NCBI RefSeq assembly: GCF_030253575.1
Contig: NC_080568.1
Span: 23,955,501-24,019,500, forward strand
DNA length: 64,000 bases
Reading direction: 5' to 3'
DNA from: Rhododendron vialii
Lineage: Eukaryota; Streptophyta; Magnoliopsida; Ericales; Ericaceae
The translations under genes and the position numbers were made by a program. A model generated the notes under the pieces. The model was not told where the DNA came from. It did not search any database and saw nothing but the letters and a program-made list of their open reading frames with translations. This document shows, one piece after another, positions 858 through 52,930 of this stretch (the first letter of the stretch is position 1; the number at the start of each line of letters is the position of its first letter).

Positions 858-1199
858 AACCCCTTGTTTAATATGCTTGTACGATTCCGATACGAAGACA
901 CTAAAGTCTTCTAAACATATTTAAAGCCCCAAAACACCATTATTTTTGCATTTACAGATCACTAGATCTGTCATAATTTATTGTCATTTCAAACTCGAAA
1001 TCCGGGGGAGGCTTCCAAGGCCAAGAGGATTTTAACTACACCCTTTTGACACTTTCAGCAAACCAAACCCCAATAGCAGAAGCCTAACACCAACCTCCAC
1101 CGATGCCAAAAAATAAAAAGTCAACAGCAACTCATTCAACTTCGACCCCCGCTCTCTCTCTCTCTCTCTCTCCCTCTCCAATTCTAATCCAAATTTCTT

Positions 1200-3652: not shown

Positions 3653-3655
3653 TAG

Positions 3656-5029
3656 ACAGGCCTGGATTTGTACAGGGGTGAAGATAGAAGATAGAGTGGA
3701 AGGTAGATAATTGTAACTTGAGAGATTAAAACCTGTTCATTCTTTTCAAAATTGTAGAAATTACCCAAAAAAAAAATTTATTGTACTTTAGTATCTCGGA
3801 GATCAATTTAGTTTAGTTGCTTTTTCTTGACATGAGTCTTCCTTTTTCAAATTGCTTGACATTTTCAAACAAAAAAAGTCTTTCTTTTCAATTGGAGTAG
3901 GTAATCAGTTAACTTATGGGGACCATATTTTCTGCCTCCATAGCCTTATCAATATAGATATCAACCACTACAAACTTGCAAATAAAACAATACGTCACGA
4001 AATATTCCATGGGTGGAATGGAGATCTCCATCCCTCGCCGGATCCGCATCCTCTCTGTTCCATGGGTGGAATGCAGATCTCCGTTTCATTTAATGTGGAG
4101 CCAACACCGCAACTATATTTGACCTAGGAAATTTGAAATACAAGACTGTGTGTTAGTATTCATACTCTAATTTTCTTGAGCCTGGGGATGATTTTTACTA
4201 AGCCCTGTGGAGTGTTAAGTACAAATACTATTATTTGTTGTCATCATTTGCTTAGAACAATTTACTTACTTCGTTATAATCGTTGAAACAGGATTTTTGT
4301 GTTTTGATTATTAGGATAGACGATGCTTGATACAGCAATCAAAATCGATCTTTATTAGAGCTCAACAAGAATATCGATCATACCAAAAATCTTATGGATC
4401 AGATACAAATTAGTTCCTCATCCAAATGCATTTATCTTTCATAAAATTAATTCGACGGGTTTGATGCATTCAGATGAGGTATTAGTCTTTTGTCAGATCA
4501 ATTTGATTTCTGCCATAATGGCTGGATCCAGACATTAGGAAAAAACCCAGGGTTAGGTTGAACCAAGGCCCAACTCATTAAGAGTTTTTACCTTGGGTTC
4601 TTCCATGATACGGAGACTTGTAACATCAGTTTTAGTTGATGTTTTCATCTGAGTTCTACAAAATGAACGATCCTAATCATTGGAGTGAACTTGAAAAATG
4701 AACGATCCTAATCATTGGAGTGAACTTGACACGGGCCCACAAAGGGGAAGCTGCACACTGCAGTCCCCTCAGTTCCACTGTGGGGACAGCTGAGAAGCCG
4801 CATCCTAAAAAATCTCACAGAAAATTCACGCATTAATTAAAAATCCAGAAACACCAATATAATTCCATAATATCACAGCAACATTCATCACAGTAAACAG
4901 CGGGATGTCTAATTTCCTACTCTTCTACTAAGACAAGCTAAACCACCACCTAATTCATACTGGTTTTCTCCCAACAAAAAAGGAAGAGAAAGAAGGGGAA
5001 AAAAACTAACCGAAGACCTACGACAACTT
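3656..5029. other. Intergenic region with small duplications
   Basis: This is the 3' flank of the formin plus about 1.3 kb without a gene. A 25-bp segment beginning TTCCATGGGTGGAATG is present at 4006-4030 and again at 4058-4082 with one mismatch. The 91-codon frame at 3852-4127 spans these copies and has no recognisable content. Confidence 0.55.
4661..4729. repeat. Two-copy 35-bp tandem repeat
   Basis: A 35-bp unit starting AAATGAACGATCCTAATCAT is repeated head to tail at 4661-4695 and 4696-4729 without an internal mismatch, so the duplication is recent. Confidence 0.9.
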
Positions 5030-7834
5030 TCACTTTCTCTTCTTAGCCGGTGGTTGATCCTCTTCATCCTCGTCTTCTTCCTCATCTTCGTCTTCATCAT
5101 CACCATCATCATCCTCGTCGTCATCGTCATCGTCTTCATCCTCGTCGTCCTTTCCCCCGTTTCCATTCGCCGGCGGACCATCCTCAGGATCCCCCTCCTC
5201 ATCATCGTCGTCGTCCCCACCTTCTTCGCCCGAGAAATCTTCATCGCCCCCGTCATCTTCCTCGTCCTGGTCATCATCCTCGTCATCGTCTTCATCATCG
5301 TCGTCCGTATCGCTAGCATCTTTGTTCTCTGGACCGGGACGTTTCCTTCTATGAAGCTCGTCAATGGGAAAACTGCAAGTGAGAGTACATCTACAATCTT
5401 AATTAAAAAAAATCAATTTCAAACCAAATATGCAGGGCTTAGGGCTCTATTTGTTTCACCATGGAACGTGAGAACAATCAATTTCTGCAAAAATACAAAA
5501 GCTCCGTTGTTTCCTTAATAGAATTTTTTTCCGAACTTTATGTAAAGATGTTCTCACTTGTATAAGAAACATTGGAAAACAAAATCCTAGATCCTGTTCT
5601 ATAACTTGTTTTCCGATAGCGAAAGAGGAAAAAAAGTGTAACCTTGACTTACCAAAAAATAGCTATAGTTTCTATTATCAACAAACACAGCTAGAAAGTT
5701 ATTCAGCAAGAGACTTTTTTCACTCCAAATATTCTCATTTTATAACTAGAACTCTTGTTCCATAGAAAAGGCAGAGCCTAAGGGACACCGAGAGAGTAAA
5801 ATAGTTACCTTCCATCAATCCCAGTAAAGTTTGGCAGCACATTAACATCATTCAGCAGAGTTCCTGTCTGAAACTCAACAGATTTAGGTCAGATAGCTTG
5901 AACAAAGGCAGTAAGTATGAGTGACAAATCAAACAAGGTAATTCAATTTTAAACCACCAATCAAACCCCAAGTGCGTTTGGATCTTGGATATGTGAAGGG
6001 ATTTCTCAAAGGAAAAGAAAACGCTAGGATTTCTCTCCACAAATCCGAGCAGTGACCTTTTTTCCTTTCACAGAGCCTTCACAATTCCAAGATCCAAGTA
6101 TAGCATAAATGTGTGCTATGAACAGTATAAGGTGAAAACACAATAGTAAATGAACATGAAACAAGGCAGAAAATAAACAACTCCAATCAATTTGGTCTAC
6201 ATATCGATCCGACCAAAAACAGGACACAATGTGAAGCTATCACAGAGCTTAGCAAGCAACGGACTAAAATTAATTTGATGTTACAAAACCATTTCAAATA
6301 TGGTCTATAGAACAACAGAGCCCTAAAAACAAAAGTTTTTGTTTAAGAGAATTATAAAATTTGTTAGAACTTGGACTGTCAGATATTCCGATGGCTCCAA
6401 CACGAACATAATCAAAATTTAATGAACTTTCCTGAAGGTTAGGTAAGATGCAATAGCTCGATACATAAGGCCAGAACTTCATAAACTATTTTTTAGATTC
6501 AAGCAGGAGGCAAATTAGAGAGAGCAGTTAATTAAAAACATTCAAAAGTAGACAAAACAGATATAATTATCACCCATTATCAGTCAAGAAAGGAAAATCA
6601 TGGAACAAGATTACCCTAGAAGGAAGTGTGCTTCGTAATGTGGCCCCAAATAGTTGACCTGGGAACCATAAATGAGAACCAGTGAACAGCACTTCCCATA
6701 CACATTCGCGGGATTTTTTGTCATATTACGGCCAAGGCCCATGGTTCTCACCAATTATGTACCATAAATTCTGAAACTAAATTCATTTATTCCAACCAGC
6801 ATCCTAGATATAGATAGTTGATGAAACGATATCTTGAAAAGACATTGGTACAAGGAAAACCACCAAGTGAGAAGGATAGTACAGGTCAGAGGATGGTCAC
6901 TGATATGACCTTACGTTACATGGACTCAGGTGTGAGTATCGGGTGCGGATGTACATCTAGGGGTCGGCCATCTCAAACCTACAAATGGAGGATACGTGGA
7001 TATGGATCCAAAATTGGATACGTTAAATAAATGCTTTTTAGTCAGACAACAGTCAGGATCTTCCCTTGAAAAATTTAAGACAGCTATACAAAAGGATCCG
7101 AATTTACCTGTGTTCTTAAAGTCCCCGCCTAGGCACTAGGCAGGGGTCCAACGCCTAGGCGATTAAGCGGCCGACTAGTCCCCCGCCTAGGTGCTAGGCG
7201 GTACCTGGCCGACTTGGGAGCGCCTAGCGTCTTTTAGAACCTTGGAATTTACATGGCAGTGTCCATAAAAAATCTCACACACACACACTCATATTGTGGA
7301 CGCAGGAGTCGCCCAAAATGGCAGATCCATGTAACGTAGCACGTGACATAACAATAAAAGTTGTGTCCGGTTTCAAAGTCCTTCTCTTTTTGTATAGGGT
7401 GATATTCCTTAATGCCCTTTTGAAGAATAATACTTTTACTAACCATAATAAATGGAAGTTACGTCTGGAGCTTTGAGCTATTTAAGCTAAACAAATCCAA
7501 AAACCAAAAACAGCGGCACCTCCTAGGAGGCAAAGAAGGGAATCTATAACGGTAATTGATCAGGGAACACATCACAAAAGCTGAAAGGGTACGTTTCATG
7601 CAAATAACAACAGCACGATCAATTCCTATCTGCACAGAGAAACTTATGGGATCGACAAGCTTGTATATAACTTTCTCCGCAAAAACGTTAAAGGCCACAT
7701 AAAGCCCCTAATTTTCCGACAGCCACAGGAGTACCAGACGCACAGCTAACTAATTTGTTTAACACCCGGACTTTCAAACAATGAATCCCAATTTCTGAAG
7801 GCTGAATGACACAAAGCATCAGAACATGAAGGTT

Positions 7835-11787: not shown

Positions 11788-12163
11788 CAGTAATGCTACA
11801 CACACAGCATTTATGCACAGATTTGTTGTGGGGCCCACTACGGGTCCCACACAAATAATCCGAGCCGTTCATTAAATGTAAAACATTTTTTCAAGGGCCT
11901 CCACGAAAAATCAACTTAATCCGATACTTAAAGATGCTCGATTCAATCATTTAACTTTTCATTCGAATTTCAGGATAATGAAAAGTTAGATGATTAAATC
12001 AAGCACTTATAAGTATCGGATTGAGCTGATTTTTTGCGAAGACTCTTGAAAAAATGTTTTACATTTAATGAACGGCTCGGATTATTTGTGTGGGACCTGT
12101 AGTGGGCCCCACAACAAATCTGTGCTCAAAATCTATGCATAAATGTTGTGTGTGTAGCATTAC
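11788..12163. mobile_element. TA-duplicating foldback MITE, copy 1
   Basis: A 376-bp element inserted in the Stowaway copy, flanked by TA (11786-11787, 12164-12165). The ends CAGTAATGCTACACACACA and TGTGTGTAGCATTAC are inverted repeats, and the pairing continues inward through GTGGGGCCCACTACGGGTCC and GAGCCGTTCATTAAATGTAA. A sister copy is at 59836-60186. The intact Stowaway at 43501 provides the empty site (ATCATTATACC). Confidence 0.85.
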
Positions 12164-12203
12164 TACCTCTCACATCAACTTTTTCCTCCACTTTCCCTAC
12201 TTA

Positions 12204-18265: not shown

Positions 18266-18808
18266 TACAAGGAGAGAGGCTCCTATATCCTACTCCTAGA
18301 GTATCTGATACACATGCTGAGTTCTTCTAAACTTAACTTATTTTTTCATTTTGTGTATTTTGCTCATCTTTTTTGAATTTTTATTAGATTCATGTGATTT
18401 TTCTTGATTAATCATCTATCTCGACGAGAGGAGTCTAAAAATTACAAAAAAAATATTACTCACACAACAATTCAAACACAATAATTCACACAACCTTTCA
18501 AATACATGTGGGCTTTACACATACTACTATTTGTGGGCCTCAAATGGATGTGAGTTATTGTGTGAGTAGCATTGTTAAATTAATTATGACCAAAAGCAAA
18601 AAAAAATTCATTAAAGACGAAAAAAATATAAGTATCACACAACTGTCTTTTGGAACTTAAGTGTCATCTTATTTGAACCCCATTTTCTCCATAGTTTTCC
18701 TCTTATACATTTTCTCTTCTCTTTGCTTTCCTTCCGCAATTTACAAGCAAAGCCATAAGTTTAAAAGAAGGCCACCACAATCTCCAATTTCGGACGGAGA
18801 ACCCTAAT

Positions 18809-19870
18809 ATGGCATCCTCATCGCAATCTTCTCTTCCTCCCACCGAGAAATCTGTCTACGTTCGAGCAATTAACAGCGACTTCGACAACGAATGGTATTC
18901 CTTCCCCCTTAACGGCCCTCCTTACATACGCGATGGAAAGCGAAAACGAGGTCTTGGTCGTAGGAAGCGAAAACGAGGTATTGGTGGTCGTAGTCTCCCG
19001 CTTCTCACCCCGCTAAATCCGAAGATGAATTCTCTGTTTGCCAGCTTTGCAGTGGTCGACTCCACAATATACAGTATTGGAGGTAATTCCCCCGGCATGG
19101 ACACTGCTTGGGAGGTCTACCGTGAGGTCTGCAGTTGGGATACGAGCCGTGTCGAAGAAGAATCCTGGGAGACAAGTCCTTCAATGGGCGGTGCTAGATC
19201 CATTCCCCAAGTGGTTACGCTGAACGGTATGATTTATGTGATGGGTGGGATTAGTGGCGAAGATGATGGTCCTCACCCATGGGCCGAAGTTTTTGACCCC
19301 AAGTCTGGTTCTTGGAGTTCCCTCAATCAACCTTGTCCAAAGCCTTCGTTTGGCGGATCCTTTTCCGCGGCTCTGCCTAGCACCAATCAGGTGTTAGTGG
19401 GATCAGCCGTAGATGGATTCATTTGTTTATACAACGTAGGATCGAAAACTTGGGAGCATTTGCATCATGAGATTGATTGTCTTCCCTCCTCAGATGAGCG
19501 CCCGGTGGTAGCAGGCACAACTTTGTTCTGGTTTCAATACGGCATGCTTCACGCCTATGATTTGCTCGGGAAATGGAATTATTCAGCCCCTGTAAGGGGC
19601 TTGGAGGATGTTGTGCCGCTAGAAGTGTTCAAACCGGATAGTGGTTGTTCCTCTTCACAGTTGCTTTGTCTCGCCGACAATGACGTCTGTTTGGTTTGCT
19701 GCGAGTACTCAAACACCAAAAAACATCTGGGTCTGCTTCATTGCATCAGAATTTCCGTTTCACCAATTATTTTGCGCGGTCGCAAGGCTCACTTTGATGC
19801 CGTTGTTGCAACTTCCCAAGCTTATTTCTTCAAAATGCCGCGTGCAATCCGTGATGCAGTGCTGATGTAA
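18809..19870 (+). CDS. Kelch-repeat protein
   Basis: The frame gives 353 aa from the first Met, which follows a 5' leader ending CCCTAATATGG. At least two kelch blades are clear: SFAVVDSTIYSIGGN (about 79-93) with a following Trp, and VVTLNGMIYVMGGISGED (about 135-152) followed by AEVFDPKSGSWSSL. Later repeats are weak. There is no F-box at the N terminus; instead a basic patch KRKRGLGRRKRKRG (44-57) arises from a 27-bp tandem duplication. Plant kelch proteins of this kind often act as substrate-binding or scaffold proteins; the partner is unknown. The last codons read CTGAT|GTAAGT, a perfect splice donor, so the gene may continue: an acceptor-like ATGATGCAG|G at 23029 would splice in frame. 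If so, the apparent stop at 19868 is intronic and two hAT elements lie in the intron. The single-exon model is equally possible. Confidence 0.75.
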   Translation: MASSSQSSLPPTEKSVYVRAINSDFDNEWYSFPLNGPPYIRDGKRKRGLGRRKRKRGIGGRSLPLLTPLNPKMNSLFASFAVVDSTIYSIGGNSPGMDTAWEVYREVCSWDTSRVEEESWETSPSMGGARSIPQVVTLNGMIYVMGGISGEDDGPHPWAEVFDPKSGSWSSLNQPCPKPSFGGSFSAALPSTNQVLVGSAVDGFICLYNVGSKTWEHLHHEIDCLPSSDERPVVAGTTLFWFQYGMLHAYDLLGKWNYSAPVRGLEDVVPLEVFKPDSGCSSSQLLCLADNDVCLVCCEYSNTKKHLGLLHCIRISVSPIILRGRKAHFDAVVATSQAYFFKMPRAIRDAVLM

Positions 19871-22619: not shown

Positions 22620-23624
22620 TAAATCTTGTATCAAACAATAGGCAAATAGGATTGATTTTCAAACTTTTAACTGGCTGAATTTTCTAAGAACTGGATGATC
22701 TTGGCAGCAATCCAATCTCAGTTTCAGGGTTAAGTTGAAGGTCAAAAGCTGGACGCCATGGCGTTGAGCTATCCTGGGGCTGTGAACCATGTCCTGAGAA
22801 CATGCTATAGTTTTCGTTGTTAGGGGTGGGGTTAAGGTTTTATGGTGATTACATGTGGCTACTAGAGTATAATTCATGGTAGAAATTTTAATTCTCAAGT
22901 GCATGTAATTAGTTTCCCATTTCATTATCGATTGGCTAAAGATCTTAAAGCTCTAAGCATACCCGAGTAAAGGCCACTTGTAAGCCATTTGCGTAGATGT
23001 AAACGCATGTTCATTTTGCTATGATGCAGGAGTTTCACCCATGGAAGTGGTATAGGTTGTGGGTTGTGGTATGTATTTTCTTTTAGTAAATTGTTCTCTC
23101 CTTTCAGATTGTTTTTTTCTTTTAAAGTTTTGTGTATGTTATTTGCTTGTTGATGTTAATAGATCCAATATTGTCTCTTTATAAATATATAAGAGTGCAA
23201 ACATATCTGGTTCTTTCAAATTCCCCTGATTAGTATTCTTAGTTAACGTGGAATGTAGTTCATTATGAAAACTATTCAGGGTATTGGTTGGATAGAAGAA
23301 GTAATATTACTTGGTGCTTTTTAGTGGTGTAATAATCAGAGGGAAGATAAGGTTTCGATTTGGGCTTGCACTGCATTGTTTTCTTTGCGGTCTTGTCTTT
23401 GGTAACATAGATTTATATGTTTGAGCTTTTTAAAAGGGTAGTGATAATGCTAAAACCCAATTTGTTGCTACCAAAACTCCCACTGAAATTTATAATTAAA
23501 AATGACTTTTTTGTCCTCTAAAATTCTAATTTATCATTCAATGCCACGATCCCTTCTTTTGTACTATTGCTACTTCTCCGATTCTATTGATCTATTCTCT
23601 CATCATTTATCTACCACTATCTGC

Positions 23625-23813
23625 TAGTGTTCTAAAAGGCGGCCGCCTAGGCCAATTAGTCCCCTTCTAGGTGCTAGGCGGTGGTCTGATGACTAGATTA
23701 GACAACCGACAAGTCGGGCGCCTAGTCCCCGCCTAGGCGCTCGGCGGCCAACTAGTCGGGGCCTAGGCGCCCCTTTTTTGCCCGACTAGCACCTAGCGAT
23801 TTTTACTACATTG
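23625..23813. mobile_element. hAT-like MITE, CCTAGGCG family
   Basis: A 189-bp element with ends TAGTGTTCTAAAAGGC and, from the right, CAATGTAGTAAAAATCG. Its flanks CTATCTGC (23617-23624) and CTGCCTGC (23814-23821) agree at 6 of 8. The body is GCCTAGGCG/GGTGCTAGGCGG palindromes as in the copy at 7108. Confidence 0.7.
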
Positions 23814-24928
23814 CTGCCTGCATTTCTACTCCAAACACCCCCAATTCTACACTACTCATTTCTCTACTTGCAAAGCAACTCGATTTGGGAGTTCATTTCT
23901 TTACTCGCAAAACCCAGTTAATTTATGACTTTGAAACTTGTTGTTGAGCTTGAATCTGGACAAAACCCAAAGACCATGTCTTTGTTGAAGCTAATTAACT
24001 TAGCAATGGAGAAAGCAACTTGTTCTTTCACCGATTTTGAGTTCTTCGGTCTACACAACCGATTCGAGCTTTGAAAATAGCTTCGATTTGATAACTAAGT
24101 CCTGTGAATAATTCACGATTCAACCCGAGAAGGTCATTAATGGCGGAGGCCATTAAAGACCAATCCAATTCGATTGAGCAGCGACTGGGGAGATTTCATA
24201 ATTCTTGACTTGACGAGTCAAGAACAATCCGAGCCTGTAAGAAGACTCCCTGGAGATTTCTTGGTTTAGAGTTTGAGAGGACTTTAATGGCGGAGGATGA
24301 ATGGTGAAGCGGGTAATAGAGCAGCTAGGGACTAGGGAGGAAGAAGAAACATTAGAAAAGAGGGGTCTTGCCATTGAATGATGGGTTAGGACTTAGGACT
24401 TAGGAGGTCAAATAAGTCATTCAATGGTAAATTTCATTGTTGAATTTTGGCAGCAACAAATTGGGTTTTGGCATTATCATTATCATTTAAAAAAGGTCGA
24501 TACGTATTTATAATCCTGTTGGTTTTGCAAGGTTTCCAAGGAAGGGTTTATTTGGGAAAAGATTCGGTGTGATCATCTTTGCTTAGTTGTTGTCTTATTT
24601 GAGTTAACCTGGAACTAAAACAATGCTTGAAAAAATAGCTGAGCAGCTTCATAATCTGGCATTATCTTTTCTGCATGGATTTGAAGTTACACTTGCACTT
24701 TGTTTGTACTTGTGTATGCACTAGTGTAGGCAGTTTTGAAACCTCTTGCTTATGCACTTGTGTAATTTGTGTGCAGCAAGAAAAATATCAAAGATTTTCC
24801 ACCCCACAGGACCCGACAATTAATTTTCAGTTTAGAGTACATTTATTTGAAGATGTCTTCTGAGGAAGGCAATGGACAACTGACGAGCAGGATTTTTCTG
24901 TTGTTGCTCTACACTTATTTATGCAAAG

Positions 24929-25997
24929 TCAGTCCCCTCAGCCAAAACTAAGACCTGTCATTCTCTTTCTTATCATATGCTTTGACAGTGGTACCAAGAG
25001 GTCAATCTCATGATTTGTTTTTTATTTAAACTATCAATGCATAACAATGTATGCGATCATTGTTTTCACCTTTCATGTCCCAGAATATCCAAGCTACTTG
25101 CAAAAGGTTAGGCTCTTTTTTAAGTAAAGTGGAAAGGTTATTCCCAAAGCAATAAAACAAAAGGATTAGAACAGGAGGTAGATAAAAAAAACGTTAAAAC
25201 ATTGAGACAAGTTCAATATTTATCAAAAAAATAGAATAGACAAGTACCCAAACATGCTCACAAAAACTTGCTTCCTCTTCACGTAAAACTCAACGAGGCC
25301 ATAATAAAACGTAGCAGAAGCTTGAGGTAGGATTACAAAAAGCTCCCTTTCAATTTGCATCTGATAAATCTAATCTATAAAATTAATGTAAGAACTAGTA
25401 GGTGACATTAGTGATTGAAAAATCGCGCCTAGGCGAGACAAGGCGTGAGGCGAGCCTGTGATGCCTCACAGTCTTGAGGCAAGGTTGAGTGAGGCGGGCG
25501 ACTAGTCGTGAGTCGAACGACTAGTCACGATGTGTGAGGTGACTTAAAAATCACGCCTAGGCGTCGTTAGGGAAAAAACGCGATCAGATCTTATATTCCA
25601 AAAAACGTGATCAGATCTTATCACATACCTCTCTGCTTCTCTCCTCTTCTTCACTCCTCTGCGGCGTCAAACGGTCATAGACAACCACCACGATCAGATC
25701 AAATCTCAGAGGTAAGATCAGATCTCTCTCCCTCCCTTTCTCTCTCTCGCACAGTTGCACGACCAGCCACCCACGATCTAATCTTGTTTTCTTCTTCTTT
25801 TTGCCGACATGGTGTGTGACTGTGTGTGTCTATATATATACATATGTGTATATGTGCTGGGTCCTTTTTTTTTCCAGTCAATCATCAATGTAACAAGACC
25901 TTTCTAAAGAGAAGCAGACATGGCCTACATGAATACTAGTACTTTACTTACTGAACTGAGTTTTTTATTTGTCTTTTATATGTTTACTAGTTAGTGG

Positions 25998-26029
<32 letters not shown>

Positions 26030-26052
26030 TCCTAGTTAGTGGAGTGTGTATA

Positions 26053-26085
<33 letters not shown>

Positions 26086-28165
26086 TAGTCAGTGGGAGAT
26101 GTGTTATACAGAGAGACCAGACAACAGAGTATATAAAAGTCCTTTACCCAAAAAAGTAGAGCAAAAATAGTCTAATAAACTTTTTTTAGCTAGTGTATTG
26201 CATATTTAGATCACAAGATCATTATTCAAACTTGAAATTGACATTTTTTATGCATTTTTAAGAATTTGACTAAATCGGAGCGATTTGCGATTCAATACAA
26301 TTCACGATTCGCAAATGGATTGTTTGTTATTATGCAATATGGTAATGTTTATTCTTGTTTTGATGGTAGGAGTGAATATTGGTCATTTATGTAGTTTATA
26401 TTTCTTTTTTTTAAATGCTCGCCTCGCTTGGATGAGGCTCTCGTCTCGCCTCACTTCAATGAGGGCTTAGTCGCCTCGCATATTTAAATCACTGGGTGAC
26501 ATACCAGAAAACTACATACGTGATCTTGATAGTGCGCCTTGGAATTCCTCTGAAAGTCAAACAAATTCATTTTCTTGGTTATAGATCCTTGTTGGATACC
26601 TCCAATGCCTAGGTTTTTTCTTCTTCGAACCATTGTATTTCAGCACTTGACGAAGATTAGGGTTTCCCGATCTCCTAACTTTTCGTTGCCAACCCAGCAT
26701 GTCAGTTGGTTGGGTGTTAAAAGGGAAGTAGTTGTCAAAGTAGACTGTGTTCGCCCCCCTCTTTATATTCCATCCAAGATCTGAAAAGATATGTCTGTCA
26801 GCTTCTGTCCAAAATAATGGATTATGGTATATATAAAAAAAAAAGAAGCCAATTCTATGCACACAATAAAATTACACTATGTTATAACTTCGCTCAGTTA
26901 GCAAAATATGAAATAATGAATATTAAGTAGGAATGTACCTCACTTCATTGACTAAAGCCACATAATTCACTAGACTACACAACTCATAGAACAAGTCAAG
27001 GGCATTCGGGAGCTGAGTTTTACAAGGGTTATTTGCAACATCATCTTTAACAATCTTCTGAAAGCCTGCCAGATCTTCTAACTTTCCTATTTTTAGACAA
27101 CATTCCTATTACCAGCAAATGATATGAAAATAGGAATGCTAAAAGATCTGGCAAGCTTTCAAAGGATTGTTGAAGATATTGTTGCAAATAACCCTTGTAA
27201 AACCCAGCTCCCAAATGCCCATGACTTATGAGTTGTGTAGTCTGGTGAATTATATGGCTTTAGTCGATGAAGTGAGGTACATTCCTAGTTAATATTCATT
27301 ATTTCATATTTTGCTAACTGAGCAAAGTTATAACTTTGTGTATTTTTAATTGCGTGCTAAGGATTGGCTTTTATATATATATATATCATAATCCATTATT
27401 TTGGACAGAAGCGGACATACATATCTTTTTCTTGGATGGGATATAAAGAGGAGGGTGGACATAGTCTACTTTGAAAACTACTTCCCTCTTAACACTCAAC
27501 TAACTGATATGTCTTGGTTGACAACGAAGAGTCAGAAGATGGGGAAACCCTAATCTTCGTCAAGTGCTGAAATACAATGGTTTGAAGAAGAAAAAAAACT
27601 CAGGCATTGGAGGTATACAACAAGGATCTATATCCAAGAAAATGCATTTTTTGACTTTCAGATGAATTCCAAGGCGCATTATCAAGATCATGTATGTAGT
27701 TTTCTGGTATGTCATCCAGTAATTCTTAGCCTGATACAAATTGAAAGGGAGCTTTTCGTAATCATGCTTGCGCTATGTTTTATTATGGCCTGAGCATGTT
27801 TGGGTACTTGTCTATTCTTTTTTTTTGGATAAATATTGAACTTGTCTCATTTTTAACATTTTTTATCTACCTCATGTTCTACTCCTTTAGTGTGTTTTAT
27901 TGCTTTAGGGATGACCTTTTCACTTTACTTAAAGAATAGTCAACCCCTTGCAACTAGCTTGGATATTTTGGGGCATGAAAGATAAAAATAATGATGGCAT
28001 ATTCTTATAAATGTGTGATCACATACATTATCATGCATGGATAGTTTAATGAAGACAACTTGGTAAGTCTTGCATCCATCATGTTTGAGATTGACCTCTT
28101 GGTACTGCTGTCAAGGCCTATGGTAAGAAAGAGGGACAAATCTTAGTTTTGGCTAAGGGGACTGA
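24929..28165. repeat. Large inverted repeat, about 1.05-kb arms
   Basis: The left arm is 24929-27094 and the right arm 27127-28165, with a 32-bp loop. Matching words include AGTCCCCTCAGCCAAAACTA (left) against the complement of TTAGTTTTGGCTAAGGGGAC (right), and GGTACCAAGAGGTCAATCTC, GACAAGTACCCAAACATGCT, AAAAGCTCCCTTTCAATTTG and CATACCAGAAAACTACATAC, each found inverted in the right arm. Pairing runs to the centre (CCAGATCTT). Without the hAT element at 25409 the left arm is about 1,072 bp, against 1,039 bp for the right. The arms differ by scattered substitutions and small indels. No gene is evident in either arm. Confidence 0.93.
25409..26494. mobile_element. hAT-like element inserted in one arm
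   Basis: A 1,086-bp element with a perfect 8-bp duplication GGTGACAT (25401-25408, 26495-26502). The ends are TAGTGATTGAAAAATCGC and, from the right, CAGTGATTTAAATATGCG. The subterminal regions are rich in GCCTAGGCG, GAGGCG and GCCTCGC words, linking it to the elements at 7108 and 23625. The opposite inverted-repeat arm reads GGATGACATACCAG, the unoccupied site. The middle holds GATCAGATC repeats and (TA)n/(TG)n microsatellites (about 26003-26086). No transposase was seen. Confidence 0.92.
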
Positions 28166-34234: not shown

Positions 34235-37200
34235 CTTATCTAAAGAGTTTTTCGATATCGTGTGCCCTCGATAGAAACTTGGCATAGGAGTGGCTTTGAA
34301 ATTGAGGCTCTGTCTTAGCTTCTTCATCTCAGCCTCCTTTTCCTCGTGAGTCAACTATAGGATTAGGATTTTCAAATAGCCACACTAGAGATAATTCCAC
34401 AGTACAACATGAATGTATCTGATGAAAGGTTCCACAATTTATAACTAAAGTTATACCTTTGACTTTGAACTAGGGCGTGTTTTTTCTGCCTCTTTGGAAT
34501 ATGATTTTCCCTCCAGTTTCTTGACAAACAATAAGTAAAAGGTTAGCAAATTCTAGTACATGTACTTAATTCGAACTGCAATCACATCTAAATGATATTA
34601 AAACAAGTTATCAGATAGGGGTGGTGGTCAAGGCTAACCTCTTTTCTTTTTTCAGATCTCTCACTACTTCTCATGCTGAAAGATGGGGCAGGCTTTGCAC
34701 TCCTGTGATCCATACCAGCTCCTTTTAGTGACCTGTTCTTCATAAACCGACATGATTGAGGTTTCAGGAAGAAGACTTAACAGCACTTAAAAGTCAATTT
34801 ACATGTAGAGCACAAAATAAACATACAAAAACTCCTTTCATGCACAAAATCTTGATAACAAGCTAAATGACAATTTTATCAGCAGAATAAAAAGCTAGAG
34901 TTATGTTGTACACCATTATTTTGGTCTACGATTTGGAAGCATCAAAGAAGGACCCTCACACCATTAGAACTAGATTCATAAACACGTGGGACAATTCTGT
35001 GGCTTCCCAGGTTGAACAAGGAATATGTATGACACCAGACCCATAAATGTGCAGGCAAACAATATCTATTTAGTACCGGCCCAATCAAGGATGTCTATTG
35101 AGATATTTTTCTCAAAAGTATCTCTCTTTCTTTGATAACTCAAGGTGTTTGGGCAGCTTGAGCGCATGGACTGGCCCTATGGTACCAAGGAACACTAATA
35201 CCCTAGCGGATTACGTTTTGGTACGCACATTCGGTAATACTATGATACAATTCCACTCCGATATAGTAAATTTTGAAATCCAAAGTGATCCCCAAAGTTT
35301 TTCCAAAATATCAATTTAATAAGGCAAAGATCTAAAGAGAGAGCAAATTTTTGATGAGATAAAATGTAAAAAATTCCGTCAAGCTCTTAAAATGTTTTTT
35401 TGTATGGATAATTTGAAAAAAAAAAAAAAAAACCTTCGTCTACTAGATGTTTATCGTTTGAAGGAGCAAGTTCTAATTTTGCTATCAATTGAAGCCTACC
35501 CCTTGCATCCCACAATTTAGGCCCATGGTATACCAAGTTCCCCTTCTTCGTACCAGTATGATCTGCGCTTCAGGTAACATAAGACTAGCCCCTGAAAAGT
35601 TGATAGCATCTAGTTGGTTTCAAAAGAATCTTACCCGGCTGAGATAGTGTTCCAGCTTCTTCCCAGTTGAGCTCTATGAGCATCCATATTCTCTGCAGTC
35701 TTCCTTAATCTACAAATCAAATAGATAATTCACAATCAAAACTCATAGAAAAGTCAAATGGGCAACTCTCCGAAGCATTTCATTGTGAAAATAATTTCGA
35801 GGTATCATACATCTTCCTTAAACATTCAACTGGAAAGTCCTAATTATTTCCAATAAAGCATATAAGACAGATTACCCCTCTTTTTCCTTCTGAGGAGTCA
35901 AAGAAGTGGACAGCTTATGTTCTGGCATTGTAGTCGATACCTGCCCGAAAGTTTGGCATCAATGTTCCAAAAGTGGAAAGATTCAAATTCACTGCCAACG
36001 GCTTTATAAAAGCATAACTATAAGCAACAATAAACATCGCACAATGACCAACCTCCTTTCTTCTAGAAGATTTATCATCACCAGAAGCTCTTACTTGGGT
36101 GAAACTGTTTTGAAATGTCTTAAATGCTCGCTTAACAATGTCTTTATCCCCCATTTTCTCCATAAACAGCGACTTCCTGGGTGTGGTAATTGAAGTTGAA
36201 TCAGAATTTGCAGTACCAAGGTTAAGGGACATGTGCATCGATGGAGCGACTTTCTTGCTTTCTCCTGCATTAAGAAATTTGCTCCTTGGTGATGATGAAC
36301 TGTATGCATTCTTTGAAGATGACCAAGAGGCATTAAGCCCAGTAGAGGTTGGTGTTGGTTTTGATGTTTTGGGGGTGGATATTTCTGGAGATTTTTTGGG
36401 CAAAGGTGATGCTTGTTTCTTCTTTGTTCCTGGAAAACTCTTCTCCTTTTTGGACAGAATCATCTAAACGAAATATTGTGAAACAATGAGATTAAGAGAG
36501 ACACCACATAACCTAATAATTAAACAATCCATGCAGTCATAAATATGCTTAAAAAAGCTACTAACTTCACCTTTTGATATTTGTTTGATGCATCCAGTTT
36601 ATCGTTCTCCTTTTTCGAGGGAGTAATCTAAAACCAAATTATGAAAGAAAATGTGAGATGGTGGAAATCAAACCATGAATAACCTCTACGGTAAGAAGTT
36701 TATTTAAACAAGGACTATCTAGAAAAACTGATTACCTTAACCCTTTGAATTTTGTTTGCCGAATCCAATCTGATTTTCTCATTTTTGTTTTCCATAGTGT
36801 TTCCCCTCCCCTTCTCAAAGCTACTTGGTGGTTGGACTGGCGATTCAACCTCCACCTTGTCTTGAAATTCACTTACACAGGGATTCTCTTGAATCAAAAC
36901 AGGTGGCAATTCCCCTTTCCCCTCAAATCCATTTAGACGAGTTTCCTCTTGAACCAAAACGGCTTCTTCTGATCTATTCAGTTCAAGCTTTTCCATGATG
37001 GATAGAGTTTCCTCTTGAACCAAAACAGCTTCTTCTGATTTATTCAGTTCAAGCTTTTCCATGATGGATAGAGTTTCCTCTTGAACCAAAACAGCTTCTT
37101 CTGATTTATTCAGTTCAAGCTTTTCCATTATGCTATCCATCTCATCTTCCTTAATTCCATCAACTGGCAGGCTTTGACGCTCTATGGATATTGATGCATT

Positions 37201-41408: not shown

Positions 41409-41451
41409 AGAAAATTACCCCCTAGTTCTATATTGATTCTTACTAGTACAT

Positions 41452-42126
41452 ATGTACATTATGAGCCCCAAATCTTTCCCACTCCTGTTCTTGATCCTCA
41501 TACTAGCTCTATTACCGGGCGTCGTCAAACCTGACCCAGACCCGCTCCAAGACTACTGCATTGGAGACACAATAAAACCCCAATCTTTCTTCGCAAACGG
41601 TGCGCCATGCCTCGACCCCTCGCTAGTGCTCCCTTCTCACTTCACAACCTCAGCCCTGACCGAACAAGGCAACACCGCCAACATGTTTGGGTTCAACCTC
41701 ACTCTGACTAGCACCGTAAACCTCCCCGGAGCCAACACCCAAGGCTTGACCATGGCTCGAGTCAACCTGGCGGCCAACGGGATTGTACCGCTTCACTCGC
41801 ACCCGCGGGCATCTGAAGTGACCATATGCCTCCAGGGCTCGATTCTCGTGGGATTCGTCAACACTTCCAATTACCTCTACACGCAAAACTTGAGACAGGG
41901 CGACTCGTTTGTTTTCCCCAAGGGTTTGATTCATTTCTTGTACAATGTGGACGCCATGAATCCTGCGCTAGCTGTGTCCGGGCTCAGCAGCCAGAATCCT
42001 GGCGCACAAATTGCTTCCCTTGCTGCATTCGCCTCAAAGCCGGCCATACCGGATGATGTTCTTAAAAAGTCATTTCAAATCAGTGGCCAAGACATGGCTA
42101 CAATTAGAAAGCACCTTGGAGGGTGA
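41452..42126 (+). CDS. GLP: Germin-like protein
   Basis: A single uninterrupted frame of 224 aa. An N-terminal signal peptide (about residues 5-25) precedes DPDPLQDYC, the usual mature start. Cys36 and Cys53 would form the conserved disulphide. Germin box 1 is PLHSHPRASE with metal ligands His115, His117 and Glu122; box 2 is FPKGLIHFLYN with His161. All four manganese ligands are present, so the cupin fold should bind metal. Likely N-glycosylation sites are NLT (82) and NTS (137). Germin-like proteins are secreted, cell-wall-associated hexamers with superoxide dismutase, oxalate oxidase or other activities; which one cannot be read from sequence. The second Met (MSPKS, 41461) could be the true start. 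The stretch after Cys36 (IGDTIKPQSFFANGAPC) differs from the commonest VAD...NGFPCK form. Confidence 0.94.
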   Translation: MYIMSPKSFPLLFLILILALLPGVVKPDPDPLQDYCIGDTIKPQSFFANGAPCLDPSLVLPSHFTTSALTEQGNTANMFGFNLTLTSTVNLPGANTQGLTMARVNLAANGIVPLHSHPRASEVTICLQGSILVGFVNTSNYLYTQNLRQGDSFVFPKGLIHFLYNVDAMNPALAVSGLSSQNPGAQIASLAAFASKPAIPDDVLKKSFQISGQDMATIRKHLGG

Positions 42127-43771: not shown

Positions 43772-43939
43772 TAGTTAATATTGAAAATATCTTTGGTGGG
43801 TATTAATTATCAAAACATTTCCTGGGCCGTCAAAAGGGGAGTATTGGAGAGCCTATTGGGCCAAAATTCAATGTCATGCACATGTGAATACCAAAAATAT
43901 TAGGCCAAAATTCGTGTTTGAATGGACTCATTAATACAA

Positions 43940-43971
<32 letters not shown>

Positions 43972-43975
<4 letters not shown>

Positions 43976-44345
43976 TCCGTCTCTCGTAAGGACCACCTTA
44001 TTTTAATAAAATGCGGACCTCCCTTTCCTGATTGAATTTTGATGATCCGAGCCGCTCAATATGTTCAGAACGTGATTTTAAGGGTACCCGCGAGAAATCA
44101 GCAAAAAAAATGACCAGAAAGGGCTTCATCCGAGCAGTTTTTGTTTGTTTTTTATCGAACGGTTCAAACAAAAAATGCTCGGATGAAGCCCTTCCCGGTC
44201 ATTTTTTTGGCCAATTTCTCGCGTGTACCCTTAAAATCACGTTCTGAACACATTGAGAGGTTCGGATCATCGAAATTTGATCGGAAAATGGGAGAAATGA
44301 GGAGGTCCGCATTTTAACTAAAATAAAAACTCCATCATTTGAGAC
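43972..44345. mobile_element. Foldback MITE, GAGCCGCTCAAT family, copy 1
   Basis: An inverted-repeat element of about 370 bp. TGCGGACCTCC...GATCCGAGCCGCTCAAT on the left pairs with TTGAGAGGTTCGGATCATC...GGAGGTCCGCA on the right, as do the inner AAGGGCTTCATCCGAGC and GCTCGGATGAAGCCCTT. It is preceded by a (TA)n tract and followed by (TG)n(TA)n, so its exact ends and duplication (probably TA) are hidden. Confidence 0.8.
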
Positions 44346-44349
44346 TGAC

Positions 44350-44390
<41 letters not shown>

Positions 44391-44392
<2 letters not shown>

Positions 44393-44755
44393 GAGTCCCC
44401 TTCTTATAAAGACTACCTTATTTTAATAAAATGCGGACCTCCTTTTTTTTTCGATCGAATTTCGATGATCCGAGCCGCTCAATGTGTTCAGAACGTGATT
44501 TTAAGGGTACCCGCGAAAAATCAGCAAAAAAAAAAAGACCAGGAAGGGCTTCATCCAAACAGTTTTTGTTTGTTTTTTATCTAACGGTTCAAATAACAAC
44601 TGCTCAAATCAAGCCCTTTCCGGTCATTTTTTTTGTCGATTTCTAGGGGGTACCCTTAAAATCATGTTCTGAACACATTGAGCGGCTCAGATCATCGAAA
44701 TCCGATCAGGAAAGGCGAGAAATGGGAGGTCCGCATATAAGGTCCTTACCTGAAG
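44391..44755. mobile_element. Foldback MITE, GAGCCGCTCAAT family, copy 2
   Basis: A second copy in the same orientation as the one at 43972, separated only by a (TG)n(TA)n tract and followed by another (TA)n tract. It shares TGCGGACCTCC, GATCCGAGCCGCTCAATGTG and the inner AAGGGCTTCATCC stem. The reading frames here are shadows of the repeat. Confidence 0.8.
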
Positions 44756-44840
44756 ATTTTATATATATATATAGACACACACACTCGATAGAGTGAGTAA
44801 TCTGACACTAACTAAATCATCAATATTTAATGGAGTGCCA

Positions 44841-45618: not shown

Positions 45619-47274
45619 CGTATCTTGAGAAATCATTTGTGTTATGTTTCATGAGATTTGTTATCCAATGAATAAATACCCCTTAATTACTTATTGTGTT
45701 GGATTCTAATTTATAGATTTCAATTTCATGTTTAATTCAGCCAATCAAACAGAATGACACTATCTGCTTTAGAAAAAAAAATTTCCTAAAAAATCAGCAC
45801 GAGTCTAAAGTCATATATAGATTATAATGTTGGCTAATATGGCTGTTAAAAAAAAAAAATTGGATCGTCTCATGTCCTTAATTTAGGCCGTAGGAGATCA
45901 ACAGTCCAAATTAGGATCATTCATTATTGCAACTAATCCATGATTCGAAGAGATTCTGAACAAGCTTGAACCATTATTTATCTTAACATATGGTCTAGAT
46001 TTGGACTGTCTTGTCTTGTCCAAATAACGTTTTGAACTAGGGAGAATCCGAACCTGAAAGAAACATAGTTATATTATGCTCTTCCAGTCAAATGGCCTTG
46101 TATCAATCAACCACCTAATAGTGTAGCACCAAATGTGTGAAAGGAAATTTTGAAGTCAATTAAAAAGGCCAAAAAAAGGCGGCCTAAACCTACTTTGAAA
46201 TTGTCCAGGTGTAAAAACACATAGGGCTGTCCACAGCTGTGAGCTGGCCTGGTATAATAAAAGAATAAGGATTCGGGCAAGGCAAGCATATGTGAGACGT
46301 AAGAAAGAGACTTCTTATTAAAACAACTACTCCCAACCCACTATCACAAGCAATGCCCCCATGAGGTGGTGGAGTGGAGGAGAGACACTTTCTTCACAAT
46401 CTTTCTTTTACAGTAAATTATTACTATTATTAATAATAGAAGAATGATTTTTGCACTCTCCAAATTATTAACTGTACTTTCAAGGGAATTTTCGCACCTC
46501 CCAAAATTAACAATTTAGAGAATGCAAAACATAACTCCATATTCATTTTCGTATTATCAATTTTGGGGAGTACGAAAATCACTTCCCTGTTAATATTATT
46601 ATGTCTTGGTTTTGAATCATTGTCATCTCAATTCAATCATAAACTTCGTCAAAGTGTTCCAAAAAAGCAAATCCAATTAGGGCATCTCCACCCCTATCCA
46701 AATTTACAACCAATTCGAATATGAGTAAAAATCATCTAAAACACTAAGTACCCTGGTGAGTAATGAAAGAAAAAAAAAATTTCACCCAAAACACAACTCC
46801 ACTTCTTTATCCAAATCCATAGCAAACTGACTTTTACCCAAAATTTTCACCAAATTAAGGGGGACCCAAATCCAATTTCAAAATTGCAACGGCTATTTTT
46901 TGGTCGTTTGCTAGTGGTTGTCGACATTGGTGATGGTTTTTCAGCAGTAGTGGTCGATGTTTTTATGTTTTTGTAAACATCATTATATCTTACGTACTCC
47001 AGCCGGTTATACCCCAAAGGAATCCCAATTTGTGGTTCATTTTTATCCCAATGGAATTTCAATATTTCATTTTGGTTCATTTTTATCCAGCTGGCTGTTG
47101 CCTGCAGTATTTTGCCAATTTTTGACATTTTTTTACTACTCCTGTTCATTAAGAATAAGAACCCTACGCGGAGCTTTCAACATTCACTATGCTACACGCT
47201 ACGCTGCGCAGCTCTATTCATTCCATCATAGACTAATTTATTCTTATTCTTTTATTTTGTCGACCTTTATGTAA
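45619..47274. other. Intergenic with transposon debris
   Basis: No gene was recognised. From 46681 (GGGCATCTCCACCCC, then ATGAGTAAAAAT and TTTTCACCAAATTAAGG words) there is the left part of an element related to 16938-18265; its right end was not found. Confidence 0.4.
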
Positions 47275-47276
47275 TA

Positions 47277-47491
47277 CTCCCTCCGTCCCTAAATAAGTGT
47301 CCGGCTCGCAAAACTAAGCCTTACAAAATATGCATGTTTTTCATTAAAAAAATTTAATTTTTTCCACAATCTAATAGAACTCATTGCTATCAATTGATTT
47401 GTGAAAAAAATTTGATTTTTTTAAAGAAACAAATGCATCTTTTTGAAGGCTTAGGTTTGCGCGTCGGACACTTATTTAGGGACGGAGGGAG
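47277..47491. mobile_element. Stowaway-like MITE
   Basis: A 215-bp element with perfect ends CTCCCTCCGTCCCTAAATAA / TTATTTAGGGACGGAGGGAG and flanking TA (47275-47276, 47492-47493). The interior differs from the copy at 43501, so it is another Stowaway subfamily. Inverted pairing continues inward (AAGTGTCCGG / TCGGACACTT). Confidence 0.94.
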
Positions 47492-48590
47492 TATAAAGAA
47501 AAAGCATAAAAAGACGGCCGGAACGCAAATCTTAGATTGAATCATTGTCATCGGTTCAATCACAACTTCGTCAAAGTGCTTGAAAAAAAACATTGTAACG
47601 TTCACACAATTGGAAATGTGAAATGTAATCCTAGTACTTTATTACCCCGTAAATCTCCATCAGATTTATTACCGTTTCTGAATGGTCACATTCCACTATC
47701 CGCAAAATATTACTATATGTCAATATTTACTCCTTTGAAACAAAAAGAAGGGAAAGCAAAAGAAAAGAAAAAACTATGAGGAAACTTTAGAGAAAATAGT
47801 GTTTCGGTTTCTCCATAAAGTAGTTTTTGAAAAAAAAGTAATTTCAAGCTCAAAAATCATGTGTTTACGTAAATAACTTTTCTACCAATATAGATCTTAT
47901 TTGATAAATCTTAATGAGATCTTTCTTTTATAAAATCCAAAAAAAATCCAAAAATTATTTTTTATTTTTATTATATTTGAATTTGAAAATTTAAAAAAGA
48001 AGGTAAACTGAAACACCTCTTAAATTCCTTTTCTTTTTTTTTCCTTCTCTGCTCCTTCTCAAACCAAACAAAGAAAAATTAATTTACTTCTCTTCCATTT
48101 TCCTATGTTCCATCAAACCCCTAGACCAGAAAAAAGCCAAAGGGTATCATCGAGCAATTCTCAGATTCGTATTTAACTACTAGGTGAATAGTTGTGTAGG
48201 AATCTCTTCAAATTCGTGCAAACTCCGATCGAAGACAAGAGTTAAAAAGATTAGAAAAAAGCAATAATCCAGCAATCCAAACAAGACTCTAGAAAAACAG
48301 TATATCATTGGTTCCATCTATGAGAAGAGAAATGAATCGAATCAACCACACGTTGATGTTATTCTTGCCCGTCCATACAAAACACCCATCGCCCGAAAAA
48401 CTGTTCCCAGCACAGGAACACCACCAGCTAGACCCAAAAAATAAATTCAAAAAAAAAAAAAAAAACAAGTACAAAAAATAATAAACAAAAAAAATACAAT
48501 AAATTTCCCTACACAATTTGTACACGGCTACCAAAGAATGACCGAATGGCCTGCCCTGTGTATGTATCGCCCGACAAAAAAAAAATCAAA

Positions 48591-49748
48591 TCAAACGAAA
48601 TAATTTGAGTATCCAATGGAGCCTGAACCGGACAGAACCAACGGCAGGTGATGGGAAGAAGGATTGTGCCGGAGTCTGTCCCGGTTGGGCTTGTAGAGAT
48701 CGTACGGCTCCCACAAGTGATCCAACGGACACGGTCTCCTCTCGTCGAGCCGGACCCACGGCTTCCCCTTGCCGGACCAATGCAACAGGCTCACCGGACC
48801 GGGGTGCAGAGACCGGCAGCTCCCCTTCACGTTGTCCCCGCCCAGACCGTGCTGGTTCCACCGGTGATCCACCGGCTCCACGTCGCCGCCGAAAACCACC
48901 AGGAACGGCGGCAGCGAGCCCAGCTCGTATATCCTCCGCTTCCTCTGCAGCTCCATCCAGTTCTCGATTTTCCTCCGGTAATTCCCCTCGCGCCATTTTA
49001 CCAAGTCCATCACCATCACCCCTGTGTTGAAGTAGCACGGGGTTTTGGACCCGAAAACCCGGGGGAGAATCGGGTCGGACCAGAAGTCGTCGGTGAAGTA
49101 CTTGGTGAAGTTGGCGTGGCAGTACTCGGGCGCCCCGATGACCCGGTTTCCCGTCAGGGTTATGGTCCAGAGCTTCCTGACGTCGTCGACTAGGATTACA
49201 TCAGAGTCCAGGTAGATGACCCGGTTCACGCACGGGTCGAGTATGTCGCCGAGGTAGTTCCGGGCGTAGTTCAGCGGGTTCTCCAGGGCCTGCCGGATCG
49301 AGGAGGAGATGAGGTTTATCACGGTGTCCTCGCGGAAGATGTAGACCTTGAAGTTGAGGGAAGGGAAGGTGGACCGGACGAGCTGGGTCAGGACCCGGGG
49401 GCTCACCGGGTCGAACTCGGCGGCGACGAAGTGGAAGAACACGTGCTCGGGGCAGGAGGCGTGGCGGAGGACGGAGTGGACCGCCGCCACGGACCCGCGG
49501 AGGTACTCGGAGTCGAGGGTCATCGCGATGTGGACGACGGACCGGTCGCACGACGACGCCGGCTCCTCACCGGACGAGGCGGGGCACTCGCCGCCGTTGC
49601 GGTACTCCGGCGCCTCGGCGAATCGGGAGAGGATCGAGGCTCTGGATTCGGGGAAGGAGCGAATCGCGAGGCACGCCGACGGCCATAGGAGGAGGAAGAG
49701 AAGAAGAGGAGAGATGTTGGAAGAAGTGATTGGGCGGCGGGGAACCAT
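48591..49748 (-). CDS. GATL: Galacturonosyltransferase-like (GATL), GT8 family
   Basis: An intronless 385-aa frame, full length for the family. A hydrophobic N-terminal segment (about 12-29) acts as signal peptide or Golgi anchor. The GT8 core begins at [14 protein letters not shown] (73) and shows NYARNYLGD (160), the metal-binding DSD in [11 protein letters not shown] (179-189), [12 protein letters not shown] (207), [12 protein letters not shown] (238), NQHGLGGDN (298) and the nucleotide-binding HWSGKGKPW (323-331). All key residues are present, so an active retaining glycosyltransferase is expected. GATL proteins work in the Golgi on pectin or xylan; the family is not fully proven biochemically. 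The lack of introns is usual for GATL genes. The coding region is much richer in G+C than its surroundings. The closest subgroup looks like GATL3/GATL4, by impression only. Confidence 0.96.
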
Positions 49749-50960
49749 TGGATGGTGATGGAATGGAAGGTTTTCAAGAAACCCCCGCCTCCACCCAAAT
49801 GAATTATCAAGAAACCCCCTCTAACCAAATGCTGTGATATGTACGTGTAGGTTGTGATAGTATTGTATTACCACTCCAAAGGAAAGGGATTGTCGGTAGA
49901 GATGGAAAGGGGGGGAATGAAGGTCAACACGTATATACGGGGCGGGGGTTTAAAGAATGCAAAGGCAAACACGTAAAATGGAAAAAGGAAAACACGGTGC
50001 TAAAAACGCGGTTTAACGCTACTAACGGCGGATGGGGGAGGAGGGCGACAGTCAAGCAAGACACAAATATGGAGAGAGAGAGAGAGAGAGTCTCCTATTC
50101 TCCTTCCCGTGCAGTATTTCATGAATCTCTCCTTCCGTCTCCCTCTGGGTTCGCGGTAGGATTTTCGGTTTTCCTTTATACGGAGCAGAATTGGTTGGAG
50201 GTTGTAGGACAAGGGAAGCTGTGCGTTGTGAACTTTTTATTACACGCGCGTGTAGCTTCAACAGTTGGGACCGGTTTTCCGCTTTTTCCTCTTTTTTTTT
50301 TTTTTTTGCCAGAAGGATTGGACCAGTTTACGCTGTAACCTTCAACAAATGTACTGTAAAATTTTGGGATATGTAGGTCACAAATAGTAATAAATCCGTA
50401 TAAATATGATTAACAGAAATACAAGGGAAATGATTTTTGCTCTCTTTTTTTTTTTTATAATTGCACTATATCTTTTTGTTTTTTAGTGAAAAAAGTCCAC
50501 ATAAAAATTTCAGGAATAACAAAAAATTGAGTGTACTTGTCAAAAAATGGGATGTGAAGATCATTACGAACGGATTAAAAAAAAAAAAAAGAATCATTAC
50601 CCAAATTAAAACACCTCCCCTTTCCATTTTTTGTGTTTTTTTAAAATCTTTGTATCAAACTTAAAACCTTGAAATATAAAGTGCAGAGGTCTCATCATTA
50701 TAGTAAATGATCACTCATTTTATTCCAAAATAATGTGAAATTGTATTATTTAACACTTTCTAAAAAATCTTGCAAGATTGATTTGGAATCTCTATGAGGA
50801 TTCTTTTTTACTGGTCAAAAATACAAACATATCCGGACCATTGATTGTCGAGATGGACGGTTTGGATAAAAACCCTCACACGATCCTCATAGAGGATCAG
50901 GATTGAGCATCATCAGAGGCGTTTGGGGTTTAGGATTATGGATGGCTTCTGAACCCCTGT
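49749..50960. other. Upstream region of GATL
   Basis: Promoter and spacer for the divergent side of GATL, with a (GA)n tract at about 50071-50090. No gene was recognised; the 113-codon frame at 49997 has no domain. Confidence 0.4.
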
Positions 50961-52639: not shown

Positions 52640-52930
52640 TTTCAAATGAGGAGGTCTTTATTTTAGTTAAAATAAGGAACTCTCGATTTCTCCCATTTCC
52701 CATTCGAATTACGATGATCCGAGCCGCTCAATGTGTTCAAAACGTGATTTTAAGAGTACCCGCGAGGAATCAGCAAAAAAAAAGACCGGGAAGGGCTTCA
52801 ATCGAGTAGTTTTTATTTGAACTGTTCGATAAAAAACAAACAACAACTGCTCGGATGAAGCATTTTCGGTCATTTTTTTTTGCTGATTTCTCGCGGGTAA
52901 CCTTAAAATCACGTTCTAAATATATTGAGT
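52640..52930. mobile_element. Foldback MITE, GAGCCGCTCAAT family, copy 3
   Basis: It shares GATCCGAGCCGCTCAATGTG, ACGTGATTTTAAG, the AAGGGCTTCA stem and the CGCGGGTAACCTTAAAATCA end with the pair at 43972/44391. It is preceded by a (TA)n(CA)n tract, as those copies are. The right end is truncated after TATTGAGTAC. Confidence 0.75.

Follow-up and report, generated by a model that had tools for sequence, protein, structure and literature searches.

Exons of a Rhododendron gene family in a long, decayed inverted repeat of Rhododendron vialii, with comparable repeats at related loci

The window analysed here, a stretch of 64,000 nucleotides on contig 12 of the Rhododendron vialii genome, contains a long inverted repeat which, as judged from its sequence, is an inverted duplication within a host gene and not a foldback transposon, because its arms carry exons, a remnant of exon 1 lies next to them, and neither a target duplication nor a further DNA copy was found. 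With a probability of roughly 60%, we consider it a decayed duplication of the host-gene exons A, B and C which, if transcribed, would likely form a long hairpin, enter the siRNA machinery and silence its own locus.

Self-comparison of the window placed the left arm, insertion included, at 24929-27093 and the right arm at 27127-28165; without the insertion the arms are 1,071 and 1,039 bases long, respectively. The repeat is composed as follows (window positions):

24929..25408, no strand assigned: left arm, outer part, including the first of the two hAT target-site copies (25401-25408)
25409..26494, no strand assigned: non-autonomous hAT-like transposon of 1,086 bp, recognised by its 8-bp duplication, ends and relatives
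26495..27093, no strand assigned: left arm, inner part, from the arm alignment
27094..27126, no strand assigned: loop
27127..28165, no strand assigned: right arm, uninterrupted and kept at full length, with exons A, B and C on the plus strand containing frameshifts and stops

An initial annotation had described two facing arms with an insertion in one of them, and coordinates, loop and interruption proved to be as claimed, apart from the loop length, which is 33 bases and not 32 bp. The arm alignment proposed there gave 882 identical positions out of 984 (89.6%), with 66 transitions and 36 transversions (K2P 0.113) and 22 gaps of 1-36 bases each. In the self-comparison of the window the outer segment alone reached E = 6e-73, which excludes a chance origin of the repeat. 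Conforming to the description of diverged arms that still pair, pairing as RNA is retained almost from end to end; the longest perfect run is 41 and the longest run with G-U allowed is 55. For the inner 1,238 nt the predicted fold has -866 kcal/mol, so that this inner stem is predicted to be very stable as RNA; if transcribed, the repeat could fold into the long double-stranded RNA that had been suggested. One strand thus carries the long, near-perfect stem by which hairpin RNA (hpRNA) siRNA loci are recognised. The outer flanks do not extend the pairing beyond the arm ends. An inverted repeat of 10 bp lies around the loop, with CATTCCTATT at 27101-27110 and AATAGGAATG at 27129-27138, and is a possible priming site for folding back.

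Protein comparison identified exons A, B and C of a gene family in the arms, which bears out the earlier reading as an inverted duplication of gene sequence. In databases this family consists solely of uncharacterized Rhododendron proteins, namely P0001 of R. vialii (LOC131299906), P0002 of R. griersonianum (338 aa) and P0007 of R. simsii (424 aa). These three alone were found at E 0.01 or better in the last protein search, and the family appears to be confined to Rhododendron as far as a word-based search sees; an earlier search for proteins, which used the peptide of exons A+B and in which candidates were limited by length, gave no match. P0007 matched the left arm over exons A and B with E 6e-15 (tblastn), and a peptide derived from the arms matched other loci of the R. 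vialii genome. The search for a single-copy parent locus proposed by the initial annotation yielded no parent at the DNA level and did yield relatives at the protein level. The following copies were assigned to the gene:

24813..24928, plus strand: exon-1 remnant of the same gene with one stop, cut where the left arm begins (tblastn with P0007)
25289..25369, minus strand: left-arm copy of exon C (tblastn with P0007 residues 372-398, E 0.027)
26542..26838, minus strand: left-arm copy of exon B, ends approximate; KEN-like by eye, no Pfam match
26938..27096, minus strand: left-arm copy of exon A, from a protein match, ends approximate

The exon-1 remnant was matched by residues 73-115 of P0007 with 32.3 bits and E 0.001 (tblastn), compared with 27.3 bits for the best among 200 shuffled queries, and it was the best place for P0007 in the window with the repeat masked. 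Its alignment (24813-24941) extends 13 bases into the left arm, and by eye the sequence reads like a kinase N-lobe. On the plus strand the order is exon-1 remnant, antisense exons C-B-A in the left arm, loop, and sense exons A-B-C in the right arm; therefore any transcript through the gene includes both halves of the stem. Stops and frameshifts are present in both arms. Of the differences between the window arms, 4 of 16 in exon A and 9 of 24 in exon B fall at third codon positions; this is no excess and indicates that both exon copies drift. Together with the strand-neutral arm differences described below, this means that the pairing retained in the window copy is not evidence of function there. 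The long gene-derived inverted duplication of the initial interpretation thus stood, while the gene setting, the exon-1 remnant and the recurrence across the family had been overlooked.

Elsewhere in the window, Pfam matches identified genes for a formin (FH2; 1188-3652, the first part, 1188-2252, being read by eye), a Kelch protein (18695-19870), a germin-like cupin (41437-42126) and a family-8 glycosyltransferase (48591-49820). A 66-bp tandem repeat with repeated LSIMEKLELNKSEEAVLVQEET units lies within a minus-strand ORF at 36939-37132. No tRNA or Rfam match was obtained within the window using bacterial-style tools.

An 8-bp duplication, GGTGACAT, flanks the left-arm insertion at 25401-25408 and 26495-26502, and the element ends in TAGTGATT/CAGTGATT; according to the arm alignment, the right arm has a single near-copy of the GGTGACAT target site. 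A 972-base query that joined the outer left arm to the beginning of the element had 44 matches listed in the genome, most of them within the element part. Four of six fetched relatives (L002, L005, L006, L007) have the same ends and 8-bp duplications, and none were found in the remaining two (L004, L008). As shared ends occur with 8-bp duplications in relatives, the insertion is classified as non-autonomous and hAT-like: it has the 8-bp target duplication, short terminal inverted repeats (TIRs) and many relatives of such elements, features of ends and duplication from which we take it to belong to the hAT superfamily. The transposon would have entered the left arm later, and it interrupts the stem. 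Another inverted-repeat element, with arms of about 155 bp (76%) and a nested GGCG-rich, hAT-like stretch inside, lies at 23423-24498, 430 bp left of the main repeat.

The genome (532.6 Mb, 13 contigs) was found to contain five loci of the family, namely C12 (the window), C13, C7a, C7b and C9, and all five carry a long inverted repeat (4 of 4 without the window locus, whose repeat was the reason for its choice). Six further loci, C6, C10a-d and C4, were matched by PF06479, the KEN model of Pfam; judged by its score, C6 appears to be IRE1 itself. Two of these six IRE1-type (KEN-domain) loci, C4 and C10d, have such repeats; none was found within 9.9 kb each at C6, C10b and C10c, and C10a has only a 377-bp palindrome, which was excluded from the long-repeat count. 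In both groups together, repeats occur at 7 of 11 loci; leaving the window aside, the count is 6 of 10. Five weak, unconfirmed places were left out of the locus count (C7:12640353, E 0.21; C12:12091823, E 0.41; C6:8253592, E 4.1; C8:24051259, E 0.24; C9:27887375, E 8.7), and at these no repeat with arms of at least 0.48 kb was found. The seven repeats have arms of 0.49-1.41 kb that are 89-95% identical and loops of 0-57 bases:

C12 (window): 984 aligned columns, identity 0.896, K2P 0.113; exons A-C
C13: 1,142 aligned columns, identity 0.889, K2P 0.121; exons A-C
C7a: 1,388 aligned columns, identity 0.918, K2P 0.088; exon 1 and the next exon
C7b: 558 aligned columns, identity 0.903, K2P 0.104; exons A-B
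C9: 532 aligned columns, identity 0.940, K2P 0.063; exon 1 (convergent copies)
C4: 917 aligned columns, identity 0.932, K2P 0.072; KEN exon
C10d: 477 aligned columns, identity 0.952, K2P 0.050; catalytic-loop exon

A search of literature titles revealed none that dealt with inverted repeats of this gene family. At C10:37010500-37205900 (L057-L060), four IRE1-type kinase/KEN loci form a cluster that spans about 190 kb; the KEN matches of L057 and L059 are broken or split.

The background frequency of such repeats was determined in 131 kb of control sequence comprising the rest of the window, six hAT loci, the five weak-match loci and three random 9.9-kb stretches. Just one comparable repeat was present, at 3055-5859 of the random stretch L063 (C4:20600001-20609900), with arms of about 1 kb, 84.8% identity over 955 columns and a loop of about 0.7 kb; it adjoins an ORF which we take to encode a CACTA transposon protein-like product. 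Compared with one repeat per 131 kb, the 6 of 10 loci represent a strong excess, although the control is small and the size limit (arms of at least 0.48 kb) was chosen post hoc on data already seen. Within the window, a palindrome at 43959-44773 has arms of about 0.4 kb with 86% identity over 371 columns. Small foldback MITE-like palindromes lie at 11789-12164, 43924-44773, 47274-47494, 59316-59704 and 59822-60200, and 44055-44381 and 52603-52929 as well as 11810-12122 and 59858-60170 are mutual copies.

As the arms of a palindrome serve as mutual composition controls, arm differences can be tested for a strand-specific lean by counting transitions after which the plus RNA still pairs by G-U against transitions after which the minus RNA does so, the two being equal if there is no strand bias. 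The window repeat itself gave a null result (34:32), and only then was the test extended to the other loci, with counts of 48:25 for C13, 51:21 for C7a, 20:29 for C4, 17:8 for C9, 8:23 for C7b and 10:8 for C10d. The lean amounted to a chi-square of 32.2 (7 df, p 3.8e-5) for all seven repeats and 32.1 (6 df, p 1.5e-5) for the six without the window, compared with 6.74 (p 0.88) for 12 control repeats; the L063 repeat gave 46:46. L060 was moved from the controls to the family, having a kinase exon in its arms, and L035, a duplicate of L057, was removed from the controls. The lean suggests strand-specific transcription or selection on pairing. From the contrast between the seven repeats and the controls, a strand-specific process is at work at C7a, C13 and C7b at least, be it transcription with strand-biased mutation or selection that keeps the stem; strand bias in mutation alone would have this effect as well. 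At C7a the lean favours the strand along which exons A-C continue and is in line with the gene, and at C9 the lean, which is not significant, is on the antisense strand, opposite to the gene.

C-to-T differences between the arms of the seven repeats were found at 68 of 432 CG, 55 of 441 CHG and 211 of 3,402 CHH sites, compared with 73 of 517, 48 of 365 and 157 of 1,442, respectively, in the control repeats. In the seven repeats such differences are thus more frequent at CG and CHG than at CHH sites. The odds ratio for CG against CHH is 2.8 in the family and 1.35 in the controls; the contrast lies in the lower CHH rate of the family, the CG rates being alike. This pattern fits past CG/CHG methylation, which is possible for any silenced DNA.

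Foldback and long-TIR transposons have two long arms and a short loop, a shape which the window repeat shares. It could be one copy of a foldback or long-TIR (MULE-like) transposon with captured gene exons, in line with its hairpin shape and with the small MITE-like foldback palindromes common within the window; it differs, however, from such elements in having no shared ends, target duplications or copies. No target-site duplication was found at its outer ends, in agreement with the earlier verdict that it is too large for a MITE and has no transposon-like ends, and target duplications of 8 bp or more were absent at the six repeats tested. Ends are not common to the six repeats compared (C10d left out), and the exons covered differ between loci. 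In the whole-genome DNA search, by a program that skips very common words, the right arm matched the window alone, and the check for wide copies of an ordinary foldback transposon, proposed at the outset, was thus negative. For lack of target duplication, copies and shared ends a foldback transposon was rejected, and we regard a transposon with captured exons as very improbable. For an assembly artefact no supporting point was found: an assembly join is unlikely given about 10% arm divergence with indels, a transposon in one arm only and, according to its description, a matching published assembly made from PacBio HiFi reads (PMC10338486), and the chance of such an artefact is negligible.

Alternatively, the inverted duplication may have inactivated a single copy of a dispensable gene and then drifted without any role as RNA, the family loci being dispensable or prone to fold-back repair. 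The stops and frameshifts in both arms, the lack of a third-position excess and of a G-U lean in the window copy, and the tolerated hAT insertion all agree with such a neutral relic, which nevertheless leaves unexplained why repeats recur at so many loci of one family and why C7a (51:21), C13 (48:25) and C7b (8:23) show a strand-specific lean; we consider it possible, though rather unlikely. The genes could also be ancient palindromes in which gene conversion maintains the similarity of the arms, C12 and C13 being derived from one palindrome. These two loci do share their layout (exons A-C, similar length), and arms within a locus are 89-90% identical against only short blastn matches of 68-77% between loci. 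On the other hand, mismatches are unclustered along the arms at C12, C13, C7a, C4 and C7b, with clustering at C9 alone (8 of 500 shuffles), and other loci cover other exons, so that at least several repeats are independent; ancient palindromes therefore seem doubtful.

Under the preferred reading, that of a decayed exon duplication with hairpin potential, each repeat would have arisen independently when repair synthesis folded back or switched template locally, a route favoured by the loops of 0-57 bases, the differing ends and the 10-bp inverted repeat at the window loop. A transcript of the gene may then fold into a long hairpin RNA, the hairpin may be diced to siRNAs, and these may guide methylation and self-silencing of the locus. 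Dicing and self-silencing would follow from plant RNA interference as established, in the accounts given there, for Arabidopsis IR71 (PMC4687873) and the soybean I locus (PMC3804491). The CG-biased decay lends weak, indirect support to dicing and locus methylation. Silencing in cis is a reasonable guess, and silencing in trans between family loci looks unlikely, since these are only about 25-60% identical in protein. The window copy itself may be inert, given arm divergence of about 10% and the interruption of one arm. Its lack of a G-U lean counts against this reading, as does the occurrence of a long repeat away from these loci, in one of the three random stretches (L063).

Among known systems, the soybean I locus is likewise an inverted repeat of plant gene-family members, inverted CHS1-3-4 clusters for which, as its report outlines, siRNAs and trans-silencing of CHS7/8 (82% identical) were demonstrated (PMC3804491); the Rhododendron repeats differ in recurring at many loci, in spanning single exons to few exons, and in that their siRNA role is predicted. 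Arabidopsis IR71 and IR2039 resemble the window repeat in their long, near-perfect stem, and their transcription and processing by DCL2/3/4 are described as shown (PMC4687873), whereas for the window repeat, with arms 10% diverged and one interrupted, both are hypothetical. With the inverted-duplication model of MIRNA origin, as sketched in PMC3237417, it has in common a gene-derived inverted duplication as starting material; unlike the loci of that model, it has old, decaying arms of 1 kb, no miRNA-like short stem selected and, by Rfam, no known RNA family in the window.

The family is likely, with weak support, to be related to IRE1/RNase L. Inspected by eye, its exons read in the order kinase N-lobe, HGN-type catalytic loop, linker and KEN-like exons B and C. 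Neither PF06479 nor Pkinase matched the window's exons, P0001, P0002 or P0007 in Pfam, and a joined C7 reading gave a Pkinase match at E 0.07 only. Profile-profile comparison of A6 with a KEN set including C4 resulted in E 0.011, at a probability of just 3.8% and colinear over 81 columns, and in E 0.31 without C4. The best hit of a PDB profile search for KEN was unrelated (E 0.36), and the predicted structure of P0002 (pLDDT 36) was too poor to use. At C4, PF06479 scored 28.3 bits against a cut-off of 23.3, with KEN in both arms, and at C10d the catalytic-loop exon is present in both arms with KEN exons 1.2 kb further on; judged by these matches, some of the inverted-repeat loci (C4, C10d) are beyond doubt KEN or IRE1-type kinase genes. 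Should the kinship to IRE1/RNase L not hold, two groups remain, with repeats at 5 of 5 loci in the Rhododendron family and at 2 of 6 among IRE1-type genes.

Gene-derived inverted repeats have been proposed as seeds of siRNA and miRNA genes, and to our knowledge such cases are usually single. Recurrence across a family would give a natural age series (K2P 0.05-0.12) along which formation, transcription, silencing and decay could be compared, and it would allow a direct test of whether palindromes are favoured or merely frequent. The strand-specific G-U test is applicable to any long inverted repeat, even where expression data are lacking. One can speculate, although we think it improbable, that a family derived from IRE1/RNase L-type genes made hairpin RNA genes repeatedly, exon by exon, because silencing of a dangerous enzyme was favoured. 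If this hairpin-silencing reading is true, the plant would direct self-made RNA interference against a self-made RNase.
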